DNA from: Trichocoleus sp. FACHB-46
Lineage (GTDB): Bacteria; Cyanobacteriota; Cyanobacteriia; FACHB-46
Direction: 5' to 3'
DNA: 64,000 nucleotides
Assembly: GCF_014695385.1 (NCBI RefSeq)
Contig: NZ_JACJOD010000022.1
Span: forward strand, 248,001-312,000
The notes beneath the pieces were generated by a model. The model had not been told where the DNA came from and made no database searches. It saw nothing but the letters and a program-made list of their open reading frames with translations. Every line of letters starts with the position of its first letter. The first letter of the stretch is position 1. Of the stretch, positions 24,449 through 63,435 are shown in pieces. Position numbers and translations under genes: made by a program.

Positions 24449-25069
24449 TCAGGGGGTCTGAGGTGCAGGTGAATCTGAGCTGGGGGCTGATTCAGGAGAC
24501 ATAGAACCGTCAGGACTCATGCCGGGGTCGGTCGTACTCCCAGCGTCATCGGCGGGGCTAGATGGGTCTACTTCAGGCACAGTGCCGCTGTCAGGGCTAC
24601 CAGGTGAGCTGGGTGGACCCGCAGGCCGAGTCATATCGGGCTCTTCGGTCTCGGTTGTGTCTGTTGTGTCTGTTGTGCCCGGGTCAGTCATAGTCCCAGA
24701 GTCATCAGCGGGGCTAGATGGGTCTACTTCAGGTACAGTGCCGCTGTCAGGGCTACCAGGTGAGCTGGGTGGACCCGCAGGCCGAGTCATATCGGTCTCG
24801 TCGGTCTCGGTTGTGTCTGTAGTTGTATCCGCAGGTTCAGCCGTATCCTCAGAAGGGCTGGTGGGGGCTGCGGTCGAATCTAAAGGGGTACCACCAGGAC
24901 AGCGGGAGTTTAGGGGAAAAACTTCGCACAGAATTCTGAAGCCTTCTGGAGAAAGCTTGATTTCTGCCGCAGAGGGGGCAGTTGTGCCACTCGATTGGGC
25001 AACAGCAGCACCGCTAGTGAGAGCCAGGGCTAGGGCTGTCCCAAAGAGGGTAACGTATTTAGCCTTCAC
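24449..25069 (-). CDS. Secreted low-complexity protein with 52-residue tandem repeats
   Basis: From GTG 25069 (GAGG nine bases upstream) the protein starts with a signal peptide (YVTLFGTALALALTSGAAVA). The N-terminal mature part has a short conserved-looking region with two Cys (ILCEVFPLNSRCPGGTP). The rest is acidic Pro/Ser/Thr/Asp-rich: two units with DMTRPAGPPSSPGSPDSGTV then PEVDPSSPADD, spaced 52 residues apart, with Thr/Glu-rich spacers and a Pro/Ser tail. No family is recognised; the composition suggests an extended, possibly glycosylated, surface or periplasmic spacer. The DNA of the two repeat cores differs at only one base in 88, so the duplication is recent or kept uniform. Confidence 0.75.
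   Translation of the reverse strand: MKAKYVTLFGTALALALTSGAAVAQSSGTTAPSAAEIKLSPEGFRILCEVFPLNSRCPGGTPLDSTAAPTSPSEDTAEPADTTTDTTETDETDMTRPAGPPSSPGSPDSGTVPEVDPSSPADDSGTMTDPGTTDTTDTTETEEPDMTRPAGPPSSPGSPDSGTVPEVDPSSPADDAGSTTDPGMSPDGSMSPESAPSSDSPAPQTP
24552..24795. repeat. Direct repeat, two copies 156 bp apart in the low-complexity gene
   Basis: Copy one spans 24552-24639 and copy two 24708-24795; the 88-bp cores differ by one base (C/T in GGCACAG versus GGTACAG). The spacers between are similar but diverged. Confidence 0.9.
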
Positions 25070-34828: not shown

Positions 34829-35644
34829 ATGTTGGATCTTGAAACCGTGAACCTGCCAGAAATGATCGCTGTTTGGCAAAAAACTCTCCGCTGGCAGCCC
34901 ACCTCGCACCAGCAACAGCAGTTACAGCGGCTTTACGAACTCATTCTAGAGGGCAACCGTCAGTTAAATCTCACCCGCATTACCGAGCCAAGTGAGTTTT
35001 GGGAAAAGCACTTGTGGGACTCGTTGCGAGGCATAGCACCATTCTTCAAGGAGGAAGGAGGAGGGATGAAGGATGAATTTGACTCCTCTTCCTCCTTCAT
35101 CCCACCCTACGGAAGTGGCGAGGGCGTACATCCTTCATCCTTTCGCGTAATCGACATTGGTACAGGTGGTGGTTTTCCGGGTATTCCGGCAGCGATCGCC
35201 TGTCCTGACTGGCAAGTGACACTGCTAGATTCGACTCAGAAGAAGGTTACTTTTCTGCAAACTCTGGCAACCACGTTAGAGCTGGAAAATATCACCACTT
35301 TAGTAGACCGAGCCGAACAGGTCGGGCAGTTGCCTGAGCACCGGGAAGCTTACGATTTAGCCCTGATTCGAGCAGTAGGGTCAGCTTCTGTTTGTGCTGA
35401 GTACGCCTTACCACTGCTGAAGCTGGAAGGACAAGCAGTGCTCTATCGCGGTCAGTGGACTGCCGAAGAAACCGGAGCCTTGCGTCCGGCGGTGGCTCAG
35501 TTGGGTGGCGCGATCGCCGCGATCGAAGAATGCAGCACTCCCGTTAGCCAAGGGATGCGACACTGTCTCTACTTACGCAAAGTGGCTCCCACCCCTAGTG
35601 AATTTCCACGGGCGATCGGAGTGCCAGCAAAGCAGCCCTTATAG
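34829..35644 (+). CDS. rsmG: 16S rRNA (guanine527-N7)-methyltransferase, with an internal insertion
   Basis: The 271-residue protein has the RsmG features LYELILEGNRQLNLTRITEPSEFWEKHLWDSL, motif I VIDIGTGGGFPGIPAAIA, TLLDSTQKKVTFLQTL and IRAVGSASVCAEYALPLLK. It methylates N7 of G527 in 16S rRNA; its loss gives low-level streptomycin resistance in other bacteria. Residues about 74-104 are not part of the family: they are encoded by heptanucleotide repeats (35050-35140) inserted in frame between the N-terminal helices and SAM motif I. The rest is intact, so activity may be retained with a disordered loop. It follows the ABC ATPase gene by five bases. Confidence 0.93.
   Translation: MLDLETVNLPEMIAVWQKTLRWQPTSHQQQQLQRLYELILEGNRQLNLTRITEPSEFWEKHLWDSLRGIAPFFKEEGGGMKDEFDSSSSFIPPYGSGEGVHPSSFRVIDIGTGGGFPGIPAAIACPDWQVTLLDSTQKKVTFLQTLATTLELENITTLVDRAEQVGQLPEHREAYDLALIRAVGSASVCAEYALPLLKLEGQAVLYRGQWTAEETGALRPAVAQLGGAIAAIEECSTPVSQGMRHCLYLRKVAPTPSEFPRAIGVPAKQPL
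35050..35140. repeat. Heptanucleotide repeat insertion inside rsmG
   Basis: GGAGGAA, GGAGGAG, GGATGAA, GGATGAA run in tandem (35050-35077), followed by the reverse complement TCCTTCATCC at 35093-35102 and again at 35131-35140. The arms could form a hairpin. The segment adds about 30 residues without breaking the frame. Confidence 0.85.
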
Positions 35645-61197: not shown

Positions 61198-63435
61198 ATG
61201 GTTCAATCGGCTCCCGGCTCGATCTTGTATGTCAATCCTACAGCAGGTAATGATGCTGCCAATGGTAGTCAAGCTACTCCCTTCAAAACTCTAAAGCGAG
61301 CCTTACAGCAAGCCCGTGGTGGAACTACTATTCAGTTAGCAGCAGGCACCTACAATGCTGCTAATGGAGAAGTGTTCCCGCTCGTGATTCCCGCAGGTGT
61401 GGCGCTTGTAGGCAATGAAAGTAATAAAGGTAGTGGAGTTTTGGTTGAAGGCAGCGGCGAATATATCAGCCCTACCTTTGCGCGGCAAAACATTACCCTA
61501 CGGCTCGAGAACACAGCCCAACTGCGGGGTGTCACCGTTACCAACCGAGCCCAGCGTGGCACTGCCGTTTGGGTAGAGTCTACAGCTCCCACAGTTGCTA
61601 ACAGTACGTTTACTAACTGTGCTCGCGAAGGCATTTTCGCCACCGGGACAGCGAATCCCGTCATTATAGACAACGTGTTTTTTCAAAATGCCGCCAGTGG
61701 CATCTCGCTGGTGCGGAACGCAAAAGGTGAAATCCGTCGTAATGTTTGTCAGAAGACAGGCTACGGCATTGCCATTGGAGATAACGCTGCTCCTCTAGTC
61801 GTTGATAACAGAATTTTTGAAAATCGTTCTGGGGTCGTACTGTCTGGTCAAGCCAATCCTGTACTTCGCAGTAACGTCCTGGAAAAAAACACCAGCGACG
61901 GCCTGGTCATTACGAATACTTCGTTGCCAGATTTGGGTAAAAGCCAAGATCCGGGGGGCAATATCTTTAGAGACAACGGTTCGTTTGACTTACACAATGC
62001 CACCAAAACCACTCTGATTTCCGTCGGCAATCAATTAAACCCCACCCGCGTTCAAGGTCTGATCAACTTTGTGGCCAGCGAGGTTCCCACTCCTACCCCA
62101 ACTCCAGTTCCAACTCCGACACCAACACCTATTCCTGTTCCGACCCCCACTCCCACGCCTACGCCAGTTCCAACTCCGACGCCTATTCCCGTTCCCACAC
62201 CCACTCCCACGCCTACGCCAACCCCAGTTCCGACACCCACTCCAACTCCGACGCCCACTCCGAATCCCGTTGGCTTGACTGATATTACAGGTCATTGGGC
62301 CGAAGGGTTTATTCGAGGGTTAGTCAGTCGTGGCATCATTAGCGGCTTCCCCGATGGTACCTTCAAGCCTGGAGCCAGCATTACCAGAGCCCAATATGCT
62401 GCGGCGATCGCTAAAGCGTTTAATCTACCCAACAAAAAAGAAGCGACTGATTTTGCGGACGTTCCGGCTGATTTCTGGGCCAAGGCAGCAATTCAGAAAG
62501 CAGCTCAAATGGGATTTGTCTCTGGTTTTCCAGACAACACCTTCCGACCTGATCAAAACTTGACGCGAGTTCAGGCGATCGTGTCTTTGGTCAGCGGTTT
62601 AGGGTTTACAGGTGGTAACACCAATATCTTGCTGGTCTATAGCGATCGCGCCCAAATTCCTAGTTATGCGACCGATGAAGTAGCTACAGCAACTCAGCGC
62701 CGCATGGTGGTGAATCAACCGCAGGTGAATCAACTAGAGCCAATGCGAGACATCAACCGAGCGGAAGTCGCAGCCTTGCTCTACCAAGCTTTGGTGGCTC
62801 GTGGTGAAGCCCCAGCGATCGCCTCTAACTTTATTGTCAACCCAGATCAAGCGACCCCCTCCTTCACCGATATTCAAGGTCACTGGGCGGCGGATTTTAT
62901 TCGCGCACTAGGTGGTCAAGGACTCATTAGCGGCTTTGAAGATGGTTCCTTTAAACCAGACGCGAAGATGAATCGGGCGCAATATGCGGCTCTGCTCGTC
63001 AAAGCCTTAAATCCGCCTGCCGTCCGAGCCGCTACTAGCTTTAGCGATGTGGCCGCAGATTTTTGGGCCGCTAACGCAATTCAGCAAGCTTACCGGGGTG
63101 GGTTTCTTTCTGGGTTCCCAGATAATACCTTCCGCCCGAATGAGAACGTGCTGCGCGTTCAAGTGCTCGTTTCCTTGGTCAACGGCTTGAACTTGGGAAG
63201 TGGTGATGAAGCTGTATTGGGGATCTATAGCGATCAAAGTTCAATTCCACCTTTCGCCCGTGGTGCTGTTGCCACAGCCACAAAACGCCGGATGGTAGTG
63301 AACTTCCCCACCGTAGGACAGCTAAACCCTAACCGGGAGACAACTCGTGCTGAAGTAACCGCTATGGTTTATCAAGCCTTGGTCAATGCTGGGCGATCGC
63401 CTGCAATTAGCTCTCCATACATCGTTTCCGCTTAG
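61198..63435 (+). CDS. DUF1565 beta-helix protein with two SLH triads
   Basis: From ATG 61198 ([21 protein letters not shown]) the protein has 745 residues. The first ~290 residues are DUF1565 beta-helix ([55 protein letters not shown]). A Pro/Thr/Val linker ([11 protein letters not shown]) follows, then six SLH units in two triads 196 residues apart ([16 protein letters not shown] and [16 protein letters not shown]). SLH triads hold proteins on the cell wall, so it should be a surface protein, yet no signal peptide is visible at the N-terminus. It could leave by a non-classical path or have a start I have missed. Confidence 0.85.
62085..62268. repeat. Pro-Thr-Pro-Val coding microsatellite
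   Basis: Degenerate CCNACNCCN units (CCGACGCC, CCAACTCC, CCAGTTCC) repeat in tandem across about 180 bp and encode the linker of the SLH protein. Such tracts vary in length by slippage. Confidence 0.85.

Follow-up and report, generated by a model that had tools for sequence, protein, structure and literature searches.

A dispersed heptanucleotide repeat carrying a nested 25-nt unit has very probably been copied into a permissive loop of the 16S rRNA methyltransferase RsmG and tolerated there in frame, and likewise in Mfd, CobK, and an SNF2-family helicase. The rsmG gene lies in a 64-kb window (contig C22:248001-312000) of a 6.56-Mb cyanobacterial genome, here called G000, which we compared with two congeners, G001 and G002, and with RsmG loci from other cyanobacteria. 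HIP1 sites, GCGATCGC, can be seen in the window sequence. By analogy, the insert is best read as a short repeat of selfish type that resembles STRR, while its nested unit resembles SDR, in a loop predicted to be disordered. The most interesting part is the repeated use of this one loop by unrelated repeat families.

The rsmG gene and its composite insert

The protein matches the profile PF02527 at 165 bits and the equivalog family TIGR00138 at 158.9 bits, above the cut-off of 99.5. Its nearest solved structures are 1xdz and the 3g88 group, and an AlphaFold2 model built on 28 RsmG sequences (mean pLDDT 87.8) has the RsmG fold, with a TMt of 0.93 to 1xdz and 0.88 to 3g8b (Foldseek). Judged by profile and model, the product is a true RsmG; the reading frame remains open and the RsmG motifs are intact, as an earlier note on this DNA had stated. 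That note also placed the insert directly before SAM motif I, and the whole repeat composite is indeed translated as the linker preceding this motif (Table 1). The apparent size of the insert depends on the reference. Where B. subtilis 1xdz has 11 residues between the aligned blocks, the present protein has 38 (residues 69-106); measured as in the survey of cyanobacterial linkers, its linker is 42 aa long against a median of ~26 aa. The earlier figure of about 30 added residues therefore agrees with the comparison to Bacillus and Thermus (+27) but not with that to cyanobacteria (only ~+16). Structure modelling, which the note had proposed, predicts the insert to be disordered: pLDDT is below 50 at residues 77-87 and 95-101, which make up most of it. 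This stretch is flanked by a helix ending at residue 67 and a strand at residues 106-110 that leads into motif I, with the RsmG fold well predicted around it.

Table 1 Features of rsmG and its insert (coordinates in the window).
Feature	Position	Strand	Basis
rsmG (gidB), 16S rRNA G527 N7-methyltransferase, 271 aa	34829..35644	+	ORF, PF02527, TIGR00138, Foldseek
Hypervariable linker, residues 65-106, KHLWD to VIDIGTGGG (SAM motif I)	35021..35146	+	Cyanobacterial RsmG comparison, AF2 pLDDT
Four-heptad unit GGAGGAA GGAGGAG GGATGAA GGATGAA	35050..35077	+	1 mismatch to dispersed 28-mer
Inverted repeat, left arm GGGATGAAGGA	35063..35073	+	Hairpin in centroid fold
Two reversed heptads, TTCCTCC TTCATCC on +	35089..35102	-	Sequence match
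Inverted repeat, right arm TCCTTCATCCC	35093..35103	+	Pairs with left arm in fold
Nested 25-nt second repeat (TACGCCCTCGCCACTTCCGTAGGGT on minus strand), heptads on both sides	35104..35128	-	Relatives elsewhere
Reversed heptads past nested repeat, TACATCC TTCATCC on +	35127..35140	-	Sequence match

The insert is a composite of two repeats. Tandem Repeats Finder places a heptad array at 35048-35077 (period 7, 4.3 copies, 86% matches), and TCCTTCATCC occurs at 35093-35102 and 35131-35140 with its complement at 35064-35073, which bears out the earlier description of GGAGGAA/GGATGAA heptads with two reverse-complement copies. Missing from that description was the second repeat, the 25-nt unit, whose site reads GGATG-TACGCCCTCGCCACTTCCGTAGGGT-GGGATGAA on the minus strand. 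Relatives of this unit, flanked by heptads, lie in mfd (L181) and cobK (L229) of G002 and at one site in G001 (L173); in the 1.1 Mb of loci examined, the unit is nested in heptads at four sites and the reversed control at none. All three copies of CCTTCATCC in the window fall in the rsmG insert, against an expectation of 0.5, a count reached in one of 100 shuffles. The composition of the heptads bears on whether they can be translated. In tandem, at least three pure GGATGAA units in the sense orientation place a TGA in every frame, because 7 is not a multiple of 3, while TTCATCC is open in all frames and GGAGGAG variants make the sense orientation readable. Other repeats in the window are two tandem 156-nt copies matching at 93% (24520-24820) and long degenerate tandem repeats of 24/54/60 nt that are apparently Pro/Thr-rich if translated (62085-62261).

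The dispersed family and its in-frame copies

With up to three mismatches allowed, the 28-mer GGATGAAGGAGGAGGGATGAAGGATGAA has 15 copies in the G000 genome and 17 and 65 in those of its two congeners, and its reversed controls have none in any of them. The rsmG insert is therefore one member of a dispersed family, with the units GGATGAA, GGAGGAA, GGAGGAG, and GGATGAG. The 14-mer TTCATCCTTCATCC occurs eight times in the whole genome, compared with zero for its reversed control, and 157 times compared with 39 at up to two mismatches. Most of the 33 heptad sites examined in G000 lie between genes or precede a likely start, a placement read from pattern searches and individual sites; ORF-internal matches at two loci (L154 and L155) look like lone chance hits and were left out of the count. 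At one site a heptad hairpin, GGATGAGGGATGAAGGATGAATTAGAATTCTTTCATCCCTCATCC, directly follows a tRNA (tRNA-Asp by eye; L038 1494-1538, G000:C24:25273-25324), with similar hairpins in both congeners, and could be a terminator or mark a favoured insertion site.

Interior in-frame copies are found in G000 in rsmG, mfd (encoding the transcription-repair coupling factor; TIGR00580, 1056 bits), cobK (cobalt-precorrin-6A reductase by profile match), the gene for an SNF2-family helicase, and that for a DUF6884 protein. The heptad peptides are nearly identical, reading KEEGGGMKDE in RsmG and KDEGGGMKDE in both Mfd and CobK. Orthologues in most other genera lack the heptad insert, although some other genera have SNF2 linkers similar in length and composition (L255, L256), so the SNF2 site may not have been empty beforehand. 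A repeat element has thus become protein sequence in a housekeeping gene, as the earlier note proposed for rsmG, which proves to be one example among several rather than the only one. Because the heptad repeat lies in frame in at least three proteins besides RsmG, junk-like DNA repeatedly becomes apparently harmless protein at tolerant spots. In G001, cobN (L194) and an unnamed 759-aa ORF (L188) are further in-frame candidates, in the opposite orientation. Both cobN and cobK (L139, G000) belong to the cobalamin pathway and carry heptads in frame, in opposite orientations, and the antisense heptad peptides FHPSSLLLHPS and SHPSSLIPHPS are found in the 759-aa ORF and the DUF6884 ORF (L167, G000).

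For rsmG, mfd, cobK, and the SNF2 gene alike, all three species have the insert at an identical codon site. A check of close relatives for presence or absence of the rsmG insert, also proposed earlier, thus found it in every congener; insertion is therefore as old as the genus and the event itself was not observed, and a recent strain-specific insertion is ruled out. Insert lengths in G000/G001/G002 are 38/30/42 codons in rsmG, 22/15/37 in mfd, 23/21/42 in cobK, and 17/16/17 in the SNF2 gene, always differing by multiples of 3 nt, and the mfd inserts of G000 and G001 are exactly 21 nt apart, equal to three heptads. In the flanks, G000 differs from the other two species at 26-47% of four-fold sites. 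Despite this, mfd of G000 and mfd of G002 both contain the 28-mer without a mismatch, although 36 of 97 four-fold sites differ between them; so do rsmG of G001, the G000 copy having one change, and the SNF2 gene of G002. The heptad core has been lost from rsmG of G002, and the peptide is broken or shortened there, in mfd and SNF2 of G001, and in cobK of both G001 and G002. From the sequences, the exact 28-mer in mfd fits homogenisation and would also fit selection on the peptide, but the mosaic as a whole agrees more closely with overwriting, time and again, or with homogenisation from the dispersed copies than with conserved peptide function, without being proof of it.

The same loop in other cyanobacteria

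We compared 110 RsmG loci, including this one, of which 62 remained after thinning. The linkers range from 15 to 63 aa, cannot be aligned between genera, and are all longer than in Bacillus. Richness in internal direct or inverted repeats (p<0.01 vs shuffles) was found in 8 of the 62 linkers and in 5 of 240 windows elsewhere in the gene (tail test, Fisher p=0.001). The other 54 of 62 linkers have no significant internal repeat, and with repeats lacking in so many, a paired Wilcoxon test over the whole set of linkers gives no significant difference in repeat content (p=0.56). Several linkers draw on repeats resident in their own genomes: GGGGAGAT in Fischerella muscicola PCC 7414 (165 genome matches), AATTCAA heptads in Tolypothrix campylonemoides (140), and AGAAGGC heptads in Leptolyngbya FACHB-321 (37) and Lyngbya HA4199-MV5 (74). 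Controls for these repeats gave no matches, nor did any of the four linker repeats match the G000 genome. The Lyngbya RsmG also has an N-terminal extension, MREQGEQGEQGE, that resembles another translated repeat (L011 / L127), besides its repeat-filled linker. In Mfd of an unrelated genus (G014), in-frame AATTCAA heptads encode NSKFKIQNSK at the same site as the GGATGAA heptads (L207), and three of the four matches to the AATTCAA pattern in that genome lie within mfd.

The earlier note had reasoned that the same insert in distant RsmG proteins with unrelated DNA would mean an ancestral loop, and this holds only in part. Cyanobacteria in general have a long, variable linker, and the loop is therefore ancestral, but the DNA that fills it varies from lineage to lineage and in several cases comes from a repeat family of the genome itself. 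We tentatively suggest, as a possibility that we would not yet favour, that the RsmG loop before motif I and the Mfd loop (LIALDEPEQC..HVEE to PKIHR) are recurrent landing and homogenisation sites for resident repeats, which would drive concerted, frame-filtered length evolution of housekeeping proteins across the phylum.

Competing explanations and related repeats

In the explanation that we prefer, the heptad repeat with its nested 25-nt unit would have been copied into the RsmG loop that joins the N-terminal helices to motif I, ahead of the divergence of the three known species, and the 28-nt heptad unit would also have been copied into loops of Mfd, CobK, and the SNF2 helicase. This account is the most economical: a selfish-type repeat would multiply through the genome and persist within genes only at points where it falls in frame into a tolerant, disordered loop. 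The RsmG insert would persist because the frame is preserved and the position is outside the folded cores, adding a flexible acidic, Ser/Pro-rich stretch with, on the model, no evident effect on catalysis. After insertion, heptads may have been gained, lost, or overwritten in frame-keeping steps. Mobility was presumably RNA-mediated, transposase-assisted, or by gene conversion, and the insert is probably without function in the protein. The linker could instead be an ancestral loop of low complexity that evolves fast and lengthens through local slippage, with heptads made in place and their likeness to other copies convergent. The excess over the Bacillus linker in every cyanobacterial RsmG compared, and the failure to align between genera, are what this explanation would lead one to expect. 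However, the four heptads recur in the same order at unrelated sites both inside and between genes, in several cases without a mismatch, the reversed control gives none, the nested 25-nt repeat recurs too, and slippage leaves the reverse-complement copies within one loop unexplained. Local slippage is consequently improbable, and a purely ancestral loop is ruled out by DNA-level identity with the dispersed copies.

A role for the insert, in the protein or in the nucleic acid, would also account for its presence. That an acidic KDEGGGMKDE loop was selected in RsmG, Mfd, CobK, and the helicase, for example to bind a common partner, is more doubtful than slippage: several proteins retain this peptide, and the mfd 28-mer is unchanged between G000 and G002 despite 37% four-fold divergence, but at each of the four sites the peptide is broken or shortened in one sister species or another, the four proteins have no common pathway, and the RsmG insert is predicted to be disordered. 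Least probable of all is that the element is maintained as an mRNA hairpin, an attenuator, or a protein-binding DNA site. The inverted-repeat arms in rsmG can pair and similar hairpins occur in conserved intergenic spots, such as after a tRNA in all three species, but G002 rsmG has lost the heptad core, and excess folding stability of the insert relative to shuffles was looked for and is absent (z -1.2 and -1.3), and on that ground we rejected RNA structure as an explanation of the insert.

The copied repeat is close to several known elements. Short tandemly repeated repetitive (STRR) heptanucleotides of filamentous cyanobacteria also occur in the tRNA-Leu intron, and the small dispersed repeats (SDR) of Nostoc are reportedly 21-27 nt long and sit inside tandem heptamers. 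STRR sequences inside cyanobacterial rnpB are the subject of Vioque (1997), going by its title as cited in PMC2858038, and the Nostoc SDR are credited to Elhai et al (2008) in the part of PMC4390886 that cites them. Like STRR, the repeat described here consists of tandem 7-nt units in several copies, is dispersed at many genomic sites above chance, and lies within a housekeeping gene; the likeness is one of unit length, tandem arrangement, and dispersal. Unlike in STRR, the host gene is protein-coding, the copies are in frame, and several proteins are affected. The nested 25-nt repeat resembles SDR in size and in its nesting in heptads, and differs in lying within coding sequence. Rickettsia palindromic elements (RPE) are selfish-type repeats found in frame in unstructured segments of unrelated housekeeping proteins, and RPE-like coding palindromes are also known from Wolbachia and Methanocaldococcus (PMC10969869, PMC2996958). 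The in-frame survival of a selfish-type repeat in tolerant segments of unrelated housekeeping proteins (RsmG, Mfd, CobK, and the SNF2 helicase) is shared with RPE; for RsmG, the segment is predicted to be unstructured. In contrast to the Rickettsia RPE, with a defined palindromic unit of ~150 nt, the repeat here is built as a 28-nt heptad module whose copy number varies, with arms of only 11 bp in rsmG, and the same protein loop is struck by unrelated families in different genera. By analogy, the rsmG insert works like an RPE but is not one. REP/REPIN elements with RAYT transposases are also short dispersed units (PMC3116915) and, being hairpin-capable, offer a possible analogue for mobility; their GTAG/CGTC tag was looked for in the rsmG insert and not seen. 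A literature search returned no report of such repeat inserts in cyanobacterial proteins; Vioque (1997) and Elhai et al (2008) were outside its reach and may have priority.

Discussion of how selfish repeats spread in frame into housekeeping proteins has mostly centred on intracellular bacteria, Rickettsia and Wolbachia among them, in which weak selection offers itself as the explanation. The cyanobacterial case, with one loop struck independently by different families, is a natural experiment on which protein positions tolerate new sequence, and it allows a direct test of where the insertions peculiar to one lineage in conserved proteins come from. It also calls for caution, as a 'signature' insertion that a cyanobacterial protein shows in one lineage only may consist of repeat DNA.
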